Below, in pieces: positions 15,992 through 25,702 of a DNA stretch of 64,000 bases (the stretch's first letter is position 1; every line of letters starts with the position of its first letter). Below the pieces are notes generated by a model. That model saw only the letters and a program-made list of their open reading frames with translations, ran no database searches and had not been told where the DNA came from. Both the position numbers and the translations under genes were made by a program. This DNA is from Apostichopus japonicus (lineage: Eukaryota; Echinodermata; Holothuroidea; Aspidochirotida; Stichopodidae). Where the stretch lies: positions 15,801,594 through 15,865,593 of the forward strand of contig NC_092563.1 in assembly GCF_037975245.1 (NCBI RefSeq). Reading direction: 5' to 3'.

Positions 15992-15993
15992 TA

Positions 15994-16206
15994 CAGTGGT
16001 GTTACGTCGAGGTTGACATTATCGTCTGGGCATTATGGTCGGTAATAGTCGGTTATCGTCTTTATAGTCGGATCGTCGAGCAACACTTTAATCGTCGGGA
16101 ATCTCAAGCAGCACTATTATAGTCATGCAGCGCGAGTATCGCCGGCTTGAAATACACTATAACGTCAGATTATCGTCAGTTAATCTGCAGTATCGTCGGT
16201 AAGGTA
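15994..16206 (+). repeat. Left end of the 9-kb element with TCGTC cluster
   Basis: After the 25-bp inverted repeat, at least six TCGTC words occur in 190 bp, mostly preceded by TA or GA, plus several AGTCGG words. They are candidate transposase-binding sites. The orientation is the same as in the right-end cluster, which is unusual for inverted-repeat elements. Confidence 0.6.
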
Positions 16207-17120
16207 GAAAGCTTAGAGGAAACGAACAATAGGTTGTGGTTTATGCTTCCAGGAGCAACAGCCACGAGGAAGAATGGCTACTAACAATATGTCAGACAGT
16301 AAACTAATTGCAAGATAATTCCTTGCAAGAGGACCGAGGCCATGACCAAACACTACTGTACTGTATATTATCAATGCCAACATACTGTACAAATCTGAAT
16401 ATAGGCCTAACGAAAATATTTCAATTTTGAATGCCTTAGTAAATCATCATTGATTTTACGGATATATAATACATTACACCATATGAACATCAGAAATACA
16501 ATCATACTTCCCAGTATCAAGCACGCTGATACATTCCCTACCGCTGAAATACACCCTATCCATTGGCCGGTCTGACCGGCACATAAACCTTTTAACCCTC
16601 GACTTGTTTGAAATATATATTTTCTTTTCTAAAAGTATTCCACGATCACTAGACAGCCCCCTCCCCCCCCCTAGTATCGCAACAACCCATCACAACAACC
16701 CCTACCTACCCCTACTCCCCCCCCCCCAGTTGCCTAAACTTTGCAATAGACTCGTATATTTACCTTGCAAGGTACAAATATCCAGCAGCAGATAAAATTA
16801 TGATAAATCCAATACGGTCCAGAGTAACAATATGCGAAAATCTAACTCCCGTTCGTATTGCTAAATAAACGTTGGTGTTACGAGAAAGGCTAATAAATGT
16901 CCAGTTGAAATTAATTGTATCCAATGAATTTATCTTGGCGACCTGCCAACTTTTACTTCCACAGCAAATATAACATGAGTACCGCGTAAATGGGTCAACG
17001 AATAACAGGTGGCTCTAAGAAGACCCTTCGTTTCTCAAGCTTTGTCACTGATCTAGATATTAACCGGGTCAGGCATAGGGTTGGGCGATATTTTCTTTTT
17101 ACCGTCACGATAAATAGTTC

Positions 17121-17150
17121 AAAAATTATCGCGATATTGCGATAATTTTT
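17121..17150. repeat. Perfect 12-bp inverted repeat
   Basis: AAAAATTATCGC and GCGATAATTTTT are separated by GATATT. The surrounding GTTGGGCGATA at 17080-17090 resembles the start of a widespread MITE type, but its other end was not found. Confidence 0.7.
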
Positions 17151-17657
17151 CCTCTAACAGAATTAGCGTAAGTGTCGAGCTTTGAGTGGACGGAGAAAGA
17201 GAGATATATGGAGGGGACATTCAAAGAGAATATCTGAAAAACCTTACGATATTTTGCACAAATATTGGTACTTAGATAAGCGCTTCCTCACAATCGAAGA
17301 GCCGCCCCGAACTTCGCTCCGCTTACGTAAAACTTATACATATATATATATAAAACACGTGGAAAAACCGAGTTTTTACACACATAATTCCCAGTGACAT
17401 TGGTCACAAAACAAGTAGGTCATCGACATTCGAACTTGCACAAGTTCATTGCACCATGGGAACAAAACAAGACATTGAACATGATGGTTCATTTTCCCGC
17501 CATCTAGACGCCGAGTGTAAATTTTCGTGTAATATGCAAATTATGAATGGTACTGTTCAGCAAGGTTAAAACTTAACCTAGTTGCGACACATACAACTTT
17601 TGGGAAGTTGTTGCAGCTGTTGTAGAAGTAATTTTTGTATCAAATGTAAAGTACTAT

Positions 17658-17796
17658 CAGGCGCGTATCCAGGGGGTGGGGCGTTGGGCGCGAAAGAAAG
17701 AGAAGAAAAAAGGGGAAAAGGGGGGGGGGAGAGAGAGGAGGAAGGAAAGAAAGGAAAGGGGGAAAAGAAAGAGAAAAAGGAGAATGAAATCCAATA
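17658..17796 (+). mobile_element. Second copy of the CAGGCGCGTATCCAGG element
   Basis: Starts CAGGCGCGTATCCAGGGGG and continues into a long G/A tract, matching the minus-strand copy ending at 13876. It lies inside the 9-kb Tc1-like element, so it inserted later or was carried along. The right end is not defined. Confidence 0.5.
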
Positions 17797-19149
17797 AAGC
17801 CCACGGGCACTGTTCTGTGTCGATATCTAGCGATATCTAGGGATGAAAATCCCAAGATCTTCCCTAAACAAGGCAGATAGAGAATCGAAGCCTTCAGTGT
17901 GTAATGAACTTGAAACTGTGCGTCTTTCGAAATGAAAATAATGTGGGGCAAAGAAGTGAACTCCTATGGACTCGGACCGTACTGAGCCGATGGCCCTGGT
18001 GGAATTATTTTTCTTTTCACTCTGTTGGAAACAACGGTAATTATATATAAAAAATGACACAAGAAACGCTTAAGTAATACTTTATTATTTCTTCAAAATG
18101 TTGCCAACTATCCAAGTAAATTTATTCTCCGTGAAACATAACCTCTACAGCTGTAAAAAAAAAAAAGAGTCGGGGAAAAGAAACACTGAATACTGAACCC
18201 CAATTAACGAAAAAACAGTTAAGTTCTATGCCGGCAAACACTCTACCTGCGTCCTCTGAAATATCGCGTCATGAATTACTATTTAAGAAACGGCTGTTTC
18301 AAACATCTCAGTAATTCTTCGGCGACTTTGATCCCTATTCATTGAGCACAATAGCATTTCATGCGTATAAACTCGTATAGGGATTATACGAGGTGTCAAC
18401 GCGGCATGTATCATTTAATTCCATTTGAAATTATCACAAAAAAAAGATTTTTTGTTGTAATGCATTAGTTCTCTTGTTTGTGTATAATAACACGAACTTC
18501 TTAACCGCCGAGGTGTTAAGGCTATTGGCATTTCACTGTGCTAAGATATACACGCATCTCACACGTTAGTCATATTATTGTCATTATTCAAACTTTTGAT
18601 ATGTCCTTCCTGTACGTTGATTCCCCCCCCCCCCACGCTCCCCACAGTTTATTATTTACTCCTCGTTATTTAATCCTCTCTTTATCCTTCTACAGTTTAT
18701 ATTTTTTCCCTGGCTTATTTTCTTCTCTCCCTCTTTGTTTACTAATCCGTTTACTTCTTTATTTGTGTTCGCTCTGCCCTCTGTATACCTACACTACTGT
18801 AGTACAGTAGTTTGCCTCTTGTATTTCCTGTTACTCGTCTTTGCGTCCGAAGTCCCTACTAGGGTCGAAACTAGACCCCCCCCCCCACTCCTTTTTTTAA
18901 CATAATGACCAGAAATAACAGGGTTTTTCTGTACTTTGACGGGGCGTAAAAAAAACTTAGTTTGTAAATGGCGATTTTTTTTTTCAACTTTATTAGGAAG
19001 CTAGCACCGCCCCTGACATTATAATCCGAAATCAGTGCTCAGGGTAAGTTGTTATCCTGCCCCACCCCCCGGGGGTAATATTCGGTACTAAAAATGAAAG
19101 CCTTAATTTAAATACAAAGGATGAAATACAAGCATGTTTGAGGGAGGAT

Positions 19150-19191
19150 GTTCATCTCTTTCTGGAATATATGGTGGTCCTTAAAAGAACC
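19150..19191 (-). promoter_or_regulatory. Histone-type 3' stem-loop and downstream element
   Basis: On the minus strand, 21 nt after the transposase stop, GGTTCTTTTAAGGACC (19191-19176) can form a 6-bp stem with a TTTA loop. It fits the metazoan histone mRNA pattern GGYYCTTYTNAGRRCC. AAAC precedes it and ACCA follows, as in histone genes. A purine-rich block CCAGAAAGAGATG starts about 10 nt further on (19165-19153), where U7-binding histone downstream elements lie (animal consensus near CAAGAAAGA). Stem-loop, loop length, flanks and spacing all agree. The inferred role is non-polyadenylated 3' end formation of the transposase mRNA. Confidence 0.65.
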
Positions 19192-19212
19192 GTTTTGTTT
19201 GTTACAGACAAC

Positions 19213-20259
19213 TTAATACTGTGTTGCCTCTCCCCGACTTTCGATGACCGCTGGTATTGCCTTCTTCAAGTTGTTGATGTAGGTTCGGCACTTTTGTGGG
19301 GTCACCCGCTCCCTCCAGAACTTAAGAATTCCTTCCACCAGTTCCTCCTTCTTGTGTGGCTTCCATTCTTTCCGTAGGAAAGTCTTCAACTCATGCCACA
19401 CCTTTTCGATCGGATTTAGGTCAGGGCTCTCTGGGGGAGTCTTCCACCATGTAATATTGGTTTCCTCCATGAAACGTCTTGCGTACAGACTGGTGTGTTT
19501 TGGGTCGTTATCTTGCATCAGACGAAAACCTTCTGGGAAATTTTTGCGACCGAAAGGCAGAAGAGCTTCTCGTAAAATTTCCACGAAGAACTCCTGACGC
19601 ATTATCCCATCGAAGATGAAGATGTCAGTAGCCCCCCGCTTCGAAATACCGGCCCACACGTGCAATTTGTATGGGTGCTTCGGTTTTCCTTTAAGTTTAG
19701 GTTTTGTGCCTTTACGGTGAAATACTATCCTGGCATGATGATCTAGCTCGATTGAACATTCGTCAGTAAACACAACGTCATTGTAAGTTTCATTCGTTAG
19801 GGCCAGTTCTCTGATGTGTATCAAACGCTTGATACGGTTTTGCCTTCTGATATTTTGGGCAAACTGAGTCTGCTTAAACACCCACCCAAGTTCAAGCTTC
19901 TTCTTCCTGATAGTGGATGTGGCGAAACTGGTGCCCGTGGCCTTGTGTAATTCTCGGCGAAGATCTGCTGAAGTCAACTCGTCGTTGGTCTCCATCAACC
20001 CATCAATAAGTTTAAGATGCTCTGTAGTCATACTTCGTTGCCGTCCACCCCGCTTGTTGTTTTGCAGGTTACCTCTCGTACGGAATCTCGCTATAATGTT
20101 CTTCACGGTGTTCCGAGATATCAAAACACCAGAATCTTTAAGTTCTCGCCAAATTTGTAAAGGTGGTTTTCTTCCGAGAATTGCCGCACGTACAATATTC
20201 AGTCGTATATGCGTTGGTACTAACTTGCCTGGCATATTGTATTCGAAGGTATAGCTCAA
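19213..20259 (-). CDS. Tc1-family transposase, DD34E, apparently intact
   Basis: Single-exon 348-aa protein that should bind the inverted repeats of its element and cut and paste it into TA sites. The N-terminal part (residues about 10-125) has two helix-turn-helix-like segments (IRLNIVRAAILGRK; SRNTVKNIIARF) joined by a GRPR-type box (KRGGRQR at 69-75). The DDE catalytic core has D166 (VVFTDECSIEL), D250 (LMQDNDPKHTS) and E285 (PDLNPIEKVWHELK). Exactly 34 residues separate D250 from E285, the Tc1 signature. Length is normal for the family and no stop or shift is present, so the copy may be active. A second in-frame Met at residue 9 is an alternative start. The 3' end carries a histone-like stem-loop, and the BEN-domain gene starts 285 bp away in the opposite direction. 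Confidence 0.95.
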   Translation of the reverse strand: MSYTFEYNMPGKLVPTHIRLNIVRAAILGRKPPLQIWRELKDSGVLISRNTVKNIIARFRTRGNLQNNKRGGRQRSMTTEHLKLIDGLMETNDELTSADLRRELHKATGTSFATSTIRKKKLELGWVFKQTQFAQNIRRQNRIKRLIHIRELALTNETYNDVVFTDECSIELDHHARIVFHRKGTKPKLKGKPKHPYKLHVWAGISKRGATDIFIFDGIMRQEFFVEILREALLPFGRKNFPEGFRLMQDNDPKHTSLYARRFMEETNITWWKTPPESPDLNPIEKVWHELKTFLRKEWKPHKKEELVEGILKFWRERVTPQKCRTYINNLKKAIPAVIESRGEATQY

Positions 20260-20544
20260 GGAAAACTGAGTTACAGTATGAAATTACCCTTGCAGAATGA
20301 ATGCATGTAGTGAGCGAACCTGGTTGCGCTATTACGGAACCACATGCTAATCCCCCTATTGATGTTTGATTGCATTATGTTAACAAGATAAAGCACTGCC
20401 TAAAATAGGCAGAAAGTTTATTGGCGGTGTCATTAAAGTAATTACTTTGTATAAAGCAAAGAACTTCGAGATCCCTGCTACCATTCGAATACAGTTTCTG
20501 TAGAAGAGAGCCAATACTGTGTACAGTAGTATTTCAACACCAAC
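20260..20544. promoter_or_regulatory. Divergent promoter of transposase and BEN gene
   Basis: A 285-bp gap separates the two start codons. It has CCAAT at 20511-20515 (plus), ATTGG at 20420-20424 (CCAAT on minus) and an octamer-like ATGCTAAT at 20344-20351. No convincing TATA box was chosen. These motifs are short and could be chance. The compact head-to-head layout suggests shared regulation. Confidence 0.4.
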
Positions 20545-23335
20545 ATGATTTCAGTAAAGACGTCAGTACAAGCAGTGGATCCTGCATGTGGAATCTGGCT
20601 CATCGGAAAAGTTTTGGAGGAGAGAGCCGACGCCTTCAAAATTCGCTGGGCGAACTACAGAGTTACAGATTGGGTTTCTAAAGAAAAAACGAGACTGCCC
20701 GTGCCAAAGCGGCAATGTCGGCTGGAGAGTGAAAATTGGAAAGAAACCCAACCGCAGTTCTATCAGAAAGGTGAAGAAGTTACAATAAAGAAGGCGGACG
20801 GAACTTCTGGGGAGGTTGTAACAGTCGAGGAAAACGACCCTTTTAACTGCGTGGTAAGTACCAAGGATTTACAGTCGCACCCCCCCCCCCATCGCCAATC
20901 GCCCTGAAGAACTGTACACGTAGGCCTCTTTACCATTTCGTTATGATAGTGTAAACTTGCTTTAAGTCTTCCTCTGGTTATTTTTTAATCTCAATACAGT
21001 ATCTCGATAACGATATCACCTTTTATAAAATCTAACGTTAATATCTTGTTAGAAGAAAATTAATGGTTTTTGAACTTATACTTCTTTACTCGTCCAGTGA
21101 AAGTAGGGGGTACAGTAGGCGGTTTACAATATGTAACGCAACGTATAGTGGCGAAGCACCTCGTAATTTCTTATAGAAAGCCCGAGAAACATTGGCTTAG
21201 AATATGTTCCTGTAATTAAGCAAAATAGCAACTACTTTGTATATTCTGCTGCTTAGTTGTCTCGTTCTCAAATATAATTTATTTTTTGTCGCGCACGTTA
21301 GAATTGACCTGATCACCATGTACAGTATATATTGCATCTATTTTTTTTTTTAAACCTTGAGATACGGCCGATTTTTAACGCTTCATTTGAAAACTAAATC
21401 TTAAAGACTTTTTGGGCCTACAGTGTCTGTAGCCTAGAATCGACAATTCAACAACAATTTCTTTCAATTTTTCACCGAAAGCCCGAGGAACATTGTAACT
21501 ACAAATATTCTTCTTGATTGTCTCGTTCTCAAAATGCGTTTTGTTTTTGGCGTTCACCGTATCGACATTATATATATCCTTCCAGATCTATGCCAAAAGC
21601 AGAAAGCTAAAATATGAGTGGCTCATGGAAATGAATCTGGTGGAATCAACGGATCGGAGGCAACCGTTAGTAATGATTGTAAACCAGGGAGAGGGCTCAA
21701 CCAACCGCAGTAGTACTGTTATACATCGGGATGTCGTCAACCACCAAAGGGACCAAGAAAACGAAACCCCGCGAAGGCGCCCCGCACAACCTAAGAGAGC
21801 CACGTCAAGCAAGGCGCCGTCGACGACGAAGAAGACAAGGACGCTGGTGCCCAAAAAGGTACGATGAGCTATCATTTTGGTGGTTACGAAGTAACTTACA
21901 GTAAATCCTTCAATCACACCTTACCATTTAATTCCTTTTGATAACCTGCTCGGACACAGCAAAAAAATTGGAAAGAAGTATTTATATAAATGTGACACTG
22001 TGTGTATACAGCGTACTGTACATTTGTAAAAGAGACGATTTGAAAAGTTGAAGTTGTTAACATACTGTAAAACGCATAATTGAAATTTCTGCGTAAAGAG
22101 TACAGGTTCCAGATAGCATTACCTCTTTCTCCTCATTAACGATCAACATGGCAAAAGAAGATAAATTGATACGATGCTATTCATAGATGTCCTCATTATA
22201 CACAATTGGGTGGAACTTATTCGTTCCTATAAAAAGCTTTGTGGGTTTGAAAAAGCCGATCAGTTACAAAGTTTAAGGTGATTCAATTATAAACAAACAC
22301 CAGTACATAACAAGGACCACAGAGACGGGTGGGGGCGGGGTAGCCTCCTCCATTTTTTCTTGCTATGTAAATTTTGAAATGATCACCTTATTACCGTGGA
22401 CCGTTTTTCCCTAGAAAAAACGAGATTTTTTCGCTGCAGTCCCTGTAAAATGATTCTTTACTCAGTACACCTACAGTAACTGTTAAAGCAGAAAAACACA
22501 CGGAACGTACTTGATTAAACGATGCATACCTAATACAGTAACCTTCATTTTGTTTATTCATTTGTTCTAACAGATTGCAACGAGGATAGCCATTGGGCCA
22601 GCAGCCCCAGGGGATGATGGAGGTCCGCCACAAGCAGAAGGGATGGCATATGGATGCGCAGATGCTGCCACAATGGCGATTCAGTCAGTGGTATCGTCAG
22701 CCACAGCAGAGGGCAATCCCCTACCTTTGCCGGATGAGTGGTCGAGGGCTACTCCAGCCTTTGGTTGTTCAGCAGTGTGCGACGGACGATTTGCTGAATT
22801 AACCATGAAGATTTTAGCGCAGTCCGAAGAGCTTGCAGAGTTGAGGAAGAGAGTGGATGAGATGGAGAGGAAGCAAGGGTCAATACAGCAGGCACCAACA
22901 TCTTCCCCAATGCCTGTACCTGCCACACCGCCACCAATTGAGCTTTCCAGTGCAGTCGGCAATGCGTTACTTACTCTGTCTTCCTCGCCCGCACCCGCAC
23001 CCACACCACTGCAAGAGCAAGATAGCCCCATCCATGTTCTCTTGGCTAAATGTTGCCAGGATCGAAGGCAAATGGCGAAACTGTTGGCTGTGCAATATTT
23101 TACGGCGGAAGAGCGACTACATGGAAATACGTCAGGGAAGCGTGGCAAGACCCAACTTGACCAACACCGCCTACAGAAAATACGACAATCCATCTTCGAT
23201 TTTGCACCGCTACCGACACACCAGGCAGAGGAAGCTGAGTGGGCACGGTTGAAGACAACCATCGATCTCTTCAACAGGCACTATAGGCAGCAACTGCGAG
23301 AGAAGGCTAATAAGACAGTACATAACCTTATCTAG
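20545..23335 (+). CDS. BEN-domain protein carried by the 9-kb transposon
   Basis: Three exons, 20545-20853, 21586-21858 and 22574-23335, with phase-0 GT-AG introns, give 447 aa. Residues about 12-55 (GIWLIGKVL, then IRWANYRVTDWV) look like a small beta-barrel of Tudor/chromo/MBT type; this is tentative. Residues 104-194 are basic and Arg/Lys/Thr-rich, ending in KKTRTLVPKK, likely nuclear localisation. Residues 272-294 form a short charged coiled coil, followed by a Pro/Ser/Ala linker. Residues about 345-435 are a BEN domain: VLLAKCC, then KLLAVQYFTAEERLHGN, LDQHRLQKIRQSIFDF and a final helix with EWARLKTTIDLFNRHY. BEN domains bind DNA and recruit chromatin factors. The start ATG (CACCAACATGA context) is the first in frame. 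The stop codon lies in the first unit of a 21-bp repeat. Possible roles are a DNA-binding partner of the transposase, a silencing antagonist, or a captured host gene. Confidence 0.82.
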
Positions 23336-23452
23336 TTGTAATGTAACCTTATCTAGTTGTAATGTAACCTTATCTAGTTGTAATGTAACCTTATCTAGTT
23401 GTAATGTAACCTTATCTAGTTGTAATGTAACCTTATCTAGTTGTAATGTAAC
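23324..23452 (+). repeat. 21-bp tandem repeat, six units
   Basis: The unit AACCTTATCTAGTTGTAATG plus T repeats six times almost without change. The TAG of the first unit is the stop codon of the BEN-domain gene, so the array forms the start of its 3' UTR. Each unit is open on the minus strand as a heptapeptide, which is not evidence of coding. Confidence 0.95.
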
Positions 23453-23624
23453 AATTTTCTGTGAGTTTAAACTGAACTTGAGCACAAATAATATCTTTTT
23501 AGTTGTCTCCTACAGTACAGGTAGTTGTATGTTACACAAAACAAGATCCATTTTATTCATTCTATATTTAAAGAATGTTGAACAATTTACTATAGATGCT
23601 TCTAAAACATTCCTCAATACGTAA

Positions 23625-23640
23625 AATAAATGAAAATAAA
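23625..23640 (+). terminator. Candidate poly(A) signals of the BEN gene
   Basis: AATAAA occurs at 23625-23630 and 23635-23640, about 290 nt after the stop codon. They are the first such hexamers downstream of the gene on this strand. This is a short motif in AT-rich DNA, so support is modest. Confidence 0.45.
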
Positions 23641-24527
23641 TATAGAAGTTATGAGTGATATAAAGTTTACAAAATATGAAAGGTGTTGCCTCAGTAATGC
23701 GTTTATTTTTTCACTTAAGAATAACATGAGTGTGATTTTTTGTGTGCTATTATTTATACGCTATTTCGTCAAACTTATACATTTTTTTCCTCACTCAGTC
23801 GGATCATATTGGACAAGCTCCGAAATTGTACTGATATAAAGAGTGTACTTACAATGCATTTTAAAATTCGATTTTAAGTTAATCTAAAGTTGCGTAATGT
23901 GCTCTGATGTCAGTCTATTTGGTTCAAAATAAATTTTCAAAAATTAAATCTTCTCTCAATACTTTTCAGTGTCTGTAGTAAAATCAGTTCATATGAAAAT
24001 AACGATGTACGCTTAGGTCTCTGTTTAAGCACGTCACCACCCCCCCCCCCCATCCCTCCACTTTCCCTCAAGCTTTCAAGTCGACCCTTGGATAACGCGC
24101 GTGGGAATTGCTGCGGGTGTGTTTGATATTCCGACCATTTAACTATGTAACATTCAAATGGCGCCGCGGCGTCTGCATTGCATTGTCAGGTCGTAACAAC
24201 AAAATTAAATGGAAGTTTAAATCTATTAATTCACAGTTAACATTCTGGATAACATCGACTTAATTTGTGTTCGGTCTGCAGATGTTTTATTCTTCACCTT
24301 ATGGTGCCTTTATATTGTAAGATATTGCCGGTAAAGAAACAAATCTTTCATCAATACTATATTATCGTTAGTGGATTGCAAACATTAAACACCGTTGCAC
24401 TCGGAAAGGTACACAAGGTAATTATTTTGTTACAGGGAAAGTAGTAAAACATTAGGCTATATATATGTGAGGTGTTACATTGTTTTGCATCGAAGTTCGT
24501 GCATGTTGCGATAATACTGTAGACAAC

Positions 24528-24853
24528 TTAGGCTAGGCCGCCTAGCAATGTACAGTAAGTTTAGAAGCGCATTGTCTTTAGTTCATCAACAGGCTGTAGG
24601 CCTGATATCGTCGGGGCTAACTGACGCTATTGACTATAATTTTAACAATAGCGATCGATTTAATCCTCTCATGAATGGTCGGTCCGCAACTTGGGCTAGG
24701 CCGCTTAGCAGTGTCAGTTCAGTGCAGTAGTTCTCTTTAATTTATCAACTGACTGTAGGCCTGGTATCGTCGGGATTGTTCGACGCTACCGACGGAAAAT
24801 TTAACAATAGCGATCGATTAATCCTTTCATGAATGGTCGGTCTGCATCTTGAA
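24528..24853 (+). repeat. 163-bp tandem duplication near the right end of the 9-kb element
   Basis: Two diverged copies start with TTAGGCTAGGCCG (about 24528) and TTGGGCTAGGCCG (about 24691). Both contain TATCGTCGGG, AACAATAGCGATCGATT and CATGAATGGTCGGT. They enlarge the subterminal TCGTCGG cluster. Confidence 0.88.
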
Positions 24854-25702
24854 TTATCGTCAGGCTAAAACACCTGTACTTTAGCATTATATCGTCCGGT
24901 AGAATTTTTAAAGTCGGATCGTCGAAATTGAAATTTATCGTACGGTATAGTCTGTATAGTCGTGTAGTGTCAACCTCGACGTAACACCACTGTACATGTG
25001 TACTGCAATTTTCAATTCCAAAATTTCTAATTTTGGGAATTTTCTTTCAAACAATCAAACTGAAACTGGCACACACATAGTTTATCAGGACTGTACACAA
25101 TGTATACAGACATGAGAAACAGACGACAGGATTCATTGTTCCTAAGCAACGTTTCTGCATGTAAAAAAGCGTGTAACTTAAATAGAAGTGACCGCCTACC
25201 ACAATCTATAAGACTCTGGCATTAGATGCTCAAATAGCAGCCAGGGTCTGCAGATTGAGCCTTTTGTGAGACAGCAAGTAAATCTAAACATCGTTATCAT
25301 CGAAACCTAAGCAATTATTATCAATTTTACCGCAAATACTTGTTATAGTGGCGTTCCATTGTTTATGAAACATTTATCATATCGAACTGACAAAGGGTTT
25401 AATAATATGTTAGTTGTGCCTGGGAGCATGTCACATGACTCTCCATGGTTGGTACGTTTTCCTGCAATGGATTGAGAGTTCGAGATCATATTAAATTTGA
25501 TGTACGTAGCCTAAATTTATTTGTTAGCCTACAGTAGCATCATGGGTAACACAAGAGTCAAGACCACAGTAATGCAAAAACTGTCAATCAGGAAGAAATA
25601 TATCCTATCCCTTACCACGAGACAAAATTGATTATAATACAGTATATGTATATATAACGTTTCCTGAAATTCTCTTGAGAGGAAAACACAAACACAGCTT
25701 AA

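Follow-up and report, generated by a model that had tools for sequence, protein, structure and literature searches.

A 9-kb Tc1-like element with a transposase and a BEN-domain gene

The stretch analysed here, hereafter the window, comprises 64,000 nucleotides of the Apostichopus japonicus genome (contig NC_092563.1, here C3; C3:15801594-15865593) and holds an element of 8,999 bp in which a Tc1-type transposase gene and a spliced gene for a BEN-domain protein lie head to head, about 310 bp apart, between terminal inverted repeats (TIRs; Table 1). Searches over the 671.6-Mb assembly show that the two genes move as one unit, bounded by the same TIRs and inserted at TA sites, that two families of such elements moved recently, and that the pairing of transposase and BEN gene predates the divergence of families with transposase identities of 45-55%.

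Table 1. Features of the window element (positions in the window)
Feature	Position	Strand	Sequence
TA target-site duplication, left	15992..15993		
Left 25-bp TIR	15994..16018	+	CAGTGGTGTTACGTCGAGGTTGACA
Left subterminal repeats	16020..16199	+	TATCGTC / ATCGTCGG / TAGTCGG
Tc1-type DD34E transposase, 340 residues, intact open frame	19213..20235	-	
BEN exon 1, conserved N-terminal region without recognised domain	20545..20853	+	
BEN exon 2	21586..21858	+	
BEN exon 3, long predicted helix (probably coiled coil) followed by BEN domain, stop included	22574..23335	+	
21-bp tandem repeat at the BEN stop codon and beyond	23323..23448	+	
Right subterminal repeats, motif and orientation as on the left	24606..24962	+	
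Right 25-bp TIR	24968..24992	-	reverse complement of CAGTGGTGTTACGTCGAGGTTGACA
TA target-site duplication, right	24993..24994		

The initial annotation, made from the letters of the window, described perfect 25-bp inverted termini with TA on both flanks, and this description stands: the two TIRs are identical at 25 of 25 positions and a TA adjoins each outer end. Within the 64-kb window, the next-best match to CAGTGGTGTTACGTCGAGGTTGACA has 9 mismatches. Over the 671.6 Mb, the 25-mer gives 90 matches with up to three mismatches, 20 of them exact, and its reversed-pattern control gives none. The subterminal repeats run in the same direction at both ends, and 8 of the 9 occurrences of TATCGTC fall in the terminal 600 + 600 bp of the element, where 1.2 would be expected under uniform placement.

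Tc1 elements normally hold one open reading frame (ORF) in about 1.3 kb (PMC7325037), which speaks for a very improbable alternative, namely that an ordinary Tc1 and an unrelated BEN gene came to lie by chance inside a large non-autonomous unit. Two inverted-repeat pairs that enclose the transposase (14 nt at 93% and 16 nt at 81% identity) could be counted in its favour. Since both are short and neither starts with CAGT, however, they are taken as chance, and no nearer CAGT-starting TIR around the transposase was found among the 25 of 36 inverted-repeat pairs listed for positions 18000-20700; the closer pair of termini that would have spoken against the initial annotation did not materialise in that set. 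As the whole 9-kb unit moreover recurs in the genome, an ordinary Tc1 nested in a larger unit was rejected.

The transposase is intact, as originally claimed. Its frame is open over 340 residues, the catalytic residues D158, D242 and E277 are present, with 34 residues separating the last two, and the Pfam profile DDE_3 matches it with E 1.6e-20, the HTH_32 and PAX matches falling just under their cut-offs. Protein searches covered 5.8 billion sequences, with about 8,000 candidates scored in each, so that distant relatives may be missed. Among the matches listed, the closest transposase outside A. japonicus comes from Holothuria leucospilota (70% identity), and the PDB match of this relative is SB100X. 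In a tree of 40 of the 93 full-length homologues from one search, built without named reference families, the window transposase groups with the Holothuria protein with support 100/99.

The spliced BEN-domain gene was likewise borne out: three exons with GT-AG introns encode 447 residues, identical to an annotated A. japonicus protein. Its Pfam BEN score is 21.6 bits against a cut-off of 23.2, which is exceeded by the Holothuria relative (25.8) and by a C16 relative (25.4); in the families 2 and 3 described below, the match is weak (18.2 bits) and absent, respectively. The Foldseek matches ranked 1 to 15 are all BEN domains, the best being the BEN-DNA complexes of BANP and BEND3 (E 6e-3 and 8e-3, probability 1.00; none below 1e-3), and the corresponding block of the predicted structure, residues 351-440, has a predicted local distance difference test (pLDDT) score of 72-92. 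The C-terminal domain of the second protein is thus predicted to have the BEN fold. Ahead of it, a long helix predicted with low confidence at residues 262-295 is probably a coiled coil. The Pfam profile search recognised no domain in the N-terminal 200 residues; a Tudor-like N-terminus was considered and dropped, the Agenet match reaching only E 0.095, under the cut-off, and the model a pLDDT of 41. Besides the window's own protein, the searches found P0122, a second model from A. japonicus, and two proteins from Holothuria leucospilota; among the matches listed, the closest BEN relative outside A. japonicus is from H. leucospilota, at 38% identity. One of the two H. leucospilota BEN proteins (P0124) and the transposase relative from that species (P0001) are recorded on contigs of equal length, 56,655,025 bp.

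Family 1: copies and recent movement

Using the left 207 bp of the element as query, 15 matches were obtained in the genome and the surroundings of all 14 others were fetched. Three of the 15 are full length with both genes (C3, that is, the window element, C23 and C20), in agreement with the initial expectation of such copies at different TA sites. They lie on three contigs, differ by 0.99-1.26% and carry TA at both sides, their TIRs enclosing the transposase as in other Tc1 elements (the right TIR of the C20 copy matches at 23 of 25 positions). Six further matches (L012, one of the two in L013, L014, L015, L017 and L019) have a TIR at each end but are missing large internal parts and gave no transposase match; only L017 among them retains part of the BEN domain. 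Short units sharing the TIRs, which the initial annotation had named as a sign against it, do therefore exist; the six fetched, however, are derivatives of the window element itself. Of the remaining matches, L011 has both TIRs, but what they enclose is about 6 kb of different DNA without a gene match, two C17 copies (L016 and L018) hold a degraded transposase together with BEN exons, with no right end within 19 kb, L020 and L021 are left ends of 73% identity without gene matches, and the fifteenth is the second left end in L013. Because the left flank is common to L016 and L018 (96% over 498 bp), and L020 and L021 share theirs too, neither pair represents independent copies. An older copy on C9, at 91.5% identity, has both genes in degraded form; no TIR was found within 8 mismatches in the 10 kb fetched around it.

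The C23 copy interrupts a tandem array. When its flanks are joined around a single TA, the sequence differs at 2 of 80 positions from an uninterrupted unit of the array, and we read that unit as a paralogous empty site; empty sites, there at orthologous loci, had been among the checks proposed for the element. Another unit of the array carries a GTA variant, and the join with two TAs matches that unit with 8 mismatches in 80. The 1.5-kb left flanks of the window, C23 and C20 copies have no mutual similarity, and flanks are also dissimilar in family 2, for which reason segmental duplication instead of transposition was rejected.

Some differences and relatives of family 1 deserve separate mention. 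At the tandem repeat of the BEN stop, four 21-bp units (84 bp) are missing from the C20 and C23 copies, and a 489-bp segment that both of them have near 23801 in the alignment is absent from the window copy. At C16:29425183-29427433, a BEN exon 3 of 94% identity stands beside an exact right TIR with no transposase match, probably a truncated or internally deleted family-1 copy. A sister subfamily with the TIR CAGTGGTGTTCCGTCGAGGTTGACA / ...GACC forms units of about 3.0-3.8 kb, with sites for instance at C2:10036059-10039711 (L029), C4:350008-353085, C23:666349-669986 and C22:3574267-3575875. Two of its loci, L028 and L029, gave no transposase or BEN match and have other repeats near their ends; L028 (C16:8957433-8965027) reaches 7.4 kb through an insert whose 755-codon open frame by eye looks like a hAT-type transposase. 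On C22, a 45% BEN match about 0.8 kb inside a sister-subfamily TIR hints at a gene-bearing relative in this subfamily.

Constraint on the BEN gene

The BEN exons contain no stop in any of the three full family-1 copies. An open transposase frame is present in the window copy alone, the C20 frame having two stops and the C23 frame a frameshift plus one stop. Silent and replacement changes in BEN number 16/12, 8/5 and 12/13 in the three copy pairs, that is, replacement/silent ratios of 0.23, 0.19 and 0.33 (Fisher p 1e-4, 0.003 and 0.007), showing that BEN is under purifying selection among these copies. The corresponding transposase counts (3/4, 3/4 and 4/6; one pair tested, p 0.19) are too small to judge selection. 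Relative to the C9 copy, the ratio is 0.36 for BEN and 0.56 for the transposase, partly reflecting the decay of that copy. The constraint on BEN is present although the transposase is broken in two of the three copies, a situation that fits a function of its own for BEN, two copies being too few to weigh.

In this regard, the BEN protein might be a chromatin-facing or anti-silencing factor that keeps the element, or its intergenic promoter, transcribed in the germ line and takes no part in the transposition reaction. Open and constrained BEN exons beside broken transposases agree with this explanation, as do the short shared intergenic region and the properties of human BEN proteins, most of which have chromatin-related functions, BANP and BEND3 binding unmethylated CpG motifs (PMC11472053). 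The concentration of motifs at the element ends, which is where motifs were looked for, argues against it, and we hold this explanation to be unlikely.

As a separate observation, BEN silent sites (20545-23335 compared with L009 and L010) differ by 2.6-5.2%, against 0.9-1.2% for the non-coding DNA of those copies (p 3e-6, 0.018 and 6e-5 for the three pairs). A CpG-rich coding sequence is one possibility for the cause of this high silent divergence.

Two further families with the same pair of genes

Family 2 is represented by two stretches, one on C1 and one on C17, that show 99.875% identity over 13,647 bp; this identity starts and stops at a TA beside a perfect 31-bp inverted repeat, CAGTACTGATTTCGCTTAACTCCCGTTGAAA. 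The two elements, of 13,642 and 13,633 bp, are 6 substitutions and 11 gap columns apart and have dissimilar flanks. In both copies the transposase (363 codons, 46% identical to that of the window) and the last BEN exon (445 codons) are open and stand head to head, BEN exons 1 and 2 being TBLASTN matches only. The family-2 TIR gives 320 matches with up to three mismatches, against none for the control, and among the first 100 places listed there are three facing pairs separated by about 4 kb, a spacing that shorter derivatives would show. At C5:13196930-13210765, a facing pair of exact family-2 TIRs spans 13.8 kb, as much as a full element, with no transposase match.

Full copies are thus few (three in family 1, two in family 2) beside 90 and 320 TIR matches, and some BEN proteins are repressors in flies and mammals; both points suit a BEN protein that acts as a self-repressor limiting copy number, like the end-binding repressors of other transposons. 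A low number of full copies is, however, common for autonomous elements, and we regard a self-repressor as improbable.

Family 3 is a single TA-flanked copy of 10,565 bp at C17:15931082-15941646, with an open transposase frame and a head-to-head BEN gene, the latter assigned by TBLASTN matches, alignment and position. Its ends, CAGTACCGCTGACGTATAACTC and CAGTACCGCTCACGTATAACTG, agree at 20 of 22 positions, a value reached in 3 of 300 trials of a 50-bp-block shuffle. Because this shuffle keeps real terminal blocks, the binomial estimate of 2e-6 to 1e-5 is preferred, and family 3 is a probable third two-gene family. Between families 2 and 3 the BEN domains share 40% identity, and with that of family 1 they share 23-26% (23% in the case of family 2).

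Each family has CG-containing words of its own, 7-8 nt long, in the terminal 600 + 600 bp: besides TATCGTC in family 1, ATCGATAA in family 2 (4 of 4 occurrences), and TTATACG (5 of 6) and CTACGCG (3 of 3) in family 3, all of them picked after the fact and without a shuffle control. These family-specific repeats may be the trace expected of a co-evolving end-binding protein.

Genome-wide pairing of the two genes

Six-frame searches of the genome returned 48 transposase and 42 BEN stretches, both lower bounds, which merge at 12 kb into 28 transposase and 23 BEN loci. For 15 of the 23 BEN loci, a transposase locus is present at a distance of no more than 12 kb, where 0.023 would be expected under uniform placement. 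The 15 are not independent, six belonging to family 1 (two of them flank duplicates) and two to family 2. Nine are arranged head to head, namely those of families 1, 2 and 3.

One BEN-like match stands apart from these. At C12:23449595-23449945, a 683-codon open frame matches residues 334-440 at 40%, with no match to a transposase of this lineage within 12 kb; it is possibly a host gene or another element, and a candidate for the related BEN gene at a fixed host locus that would have spoken against the initial annotation.

Discussion

A lineage rather than a chance combination

The full copies, the empty site, the linkage of 15 of the 23 BEN loci, the second family and the probable third together argue for a lineage and not for a chance capture. 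The initial annotation had claimed a cargo-bearing Tc1 lineage, and this claim is supported by three full copies, a paralogous empty site, older two-gene copies and the recently mobile family 2. In our view, the recurrence of the whole unit, the empty site, the gene pair in family 2 and the genome-wide linkage refute the chance meeting of an ordinary Tc1 with an unrelated BEN gene.

Since the pairing recurs in deeply diverged families, two of them recently mobile, the BEN protein probably helps or controls jumping. The roles suggested at the outset were that it assists transposition, targets chromatin or counters silencing. We lean, with modest confidence, towards the window unit being a complete member of a giant two-gene Tc1 lineage whose BEN protein binds the end repeats and helps or regulates transposition.

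Several observations weigh against this proposal. Only one of the three full family-1 copies has an open transposase. The transposase-less derivatives, five of the six also lacking a BEN match, moved with the same ends, and the BEN gene is therefore not needed in cis. For the N-terminal part of the BEN protein no reliable model was obtained (pLDDT about 41), and the commonest 7-mer at the family-2 ends, ATAAAAA, is AT-only, with 7 occurrences at the ends and 4 elsewhere. Linkage of the two genes is, moreover, incomplete: 8 of the 23 BEN loci have no transposase within 12 kb, and 13 of the 28 transposase loci, one of them open-framed (C1:11247616), have no BEN match within that distance. Three of the 8 unpaired BEN loci (C16:29425183, C1:6917931 and C22:3574267) lie inside or beside TIRs of this group, and the BEN query, a family-1 protein, may miss domains as distant as 23%, so that the unpaired transposases are not shown to be BEN-less. 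Finally, 6 of the 15 linked loci have both genes on the same strand (two on C16, two on C10, one each on C2 and C22), in one case 9 kb apart, and no family-1-type TIR was found in L031 (C16), the sole one of these six that was fetched.

Derivatives that move without the BEN gene, and BEN loci without a transposase nearby, would also agree with BEN being a passenger captured from the host, with no role for the element. A passenger should be lost or replaced, whereas the pairing persists across BEN domains only 23-26% identical, together with purifying selection and recent movement. We consider a mere passenger quite improbable.

A possible mechanism

For an element whose BEN protein acts at its ends, we propose the following model. 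The transposase would cut at the short TIRs, as in other Tc1 elements, and the BEN protein would oligomerise through its helix and bind the family-specific CG-containing repeats inside both ends. It could thereby hold the widely spaced ends together, or mark them for the transposase, so that transposition would be helped or regulated. Methylation of CpG sites might abolish such binding, as with BANP and BEND3.

Binding of DNA by the BEN protein is suggested by analogy, given that BEN domains bind DNA (PMC11472053) and that the BANP and BEND3 complexes lead its structural matches. In line with this notion, BANP depends on oligomerisation for selecting unmethylated CGCG (PMC11472053), and in the Tn3 transposase TnpA a BEN-like domain reads the inverted repeat of that transposon (PMC9579193). 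A stronger form of the model, which we advance only tentatively and hold to be rather less likely true than false, is an old animal Tc1 lineage with BEN as an obligate second transposition protein that reads the CG repeats of its family, bridges ends 9-14 kb apart and, through sensitivity to CpG methylation, couples transposition to the epigenetic state.

Comparison with known systems

The window element shares with the Tc1 family (Tc1, Sleeping Beauty, Minos) a DD34E transposase with DDE_3, short TIRs starting with CAGT and the TA target. It departs from that family in size, the elements measuring 9.0-9.4, about 10.6 and 13.6 kb, in the spliced second gene and in the long repeat-bearing subterminal regions. 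PIF/Harbinger elements likewise combine a transposase with a separate element-encoded DNA-binding protein; that partner is Myb/SANT-like, the transposase is a different one and the target site has 3 bp, whereas the window element has a Tc1-type DDE_3 transposase and a TA site. BEN domains also occur in viruses of parasitoid wasps.

Multi-gene Tc1/mariner elements are known as TBE and Tec of ciliates (PMC4724952, PMC7325037), TBE genes having a ratio of replacement to silent substitution rates (dN/dS) of 0.1-0.3 (PMC4724952). These too join a Tc1/mariner transposase to additional genes, but the partners described in those sources are a 22-kD ORF and a 57-kD zinc finger/kinase protein in TBE and a recombinase in Tec. 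By eye, no zinc-finger/kinase or recombinase companion was seen among the stop-free frames of at least 120 codons at the C23 and C20 loci. With BANP, BEND3 and NACC1 the element's BEN protein shares a predicted C-terminal BEN fold after a long predicted helix, the BEN domain of BANP being preceded by a coiled coil (PMC11472053). Those proteins differ in being encoded by host genes, and in contrast to them the element's protein has N-terminal 200 residues without a recognised domain. The first DNA-binding domain (DBD1) of Tn3-family TnpA resembles it in that a BEN-like fold reads a transposon terminal inverted repeat (PMC9579193); it differs in lying within the transposase itself, which is bacterial and unrelated.

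In the literature search, by title and abstract and with most subscription journals outside its reach, the matches listed included neither a DNA transposon with a BEN gene nor an animal lineage of giant two-gene Tc1 elements. Additional genes are already known in the Tc1/mariner elements of ciliates, and the BEN partner appears to be new within the literature searched.

Significance

Tc1/mariner is the textbook minimal transposon, one short gene between two short repeats. The elements of A. japonicus belong to an animal Tc1 lineage that is about 7 to 10 times larger, has kept a second, probably DNA-binding gene through deep divergence and was recently mobile. This opens the question of why some Tc1 elements would need a partner protein and, in addition, whether BEN domains, known from host chromatin factors, also lived in mobile DNA. 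The lineage constitutes a natural large Tc1 system with open genes.

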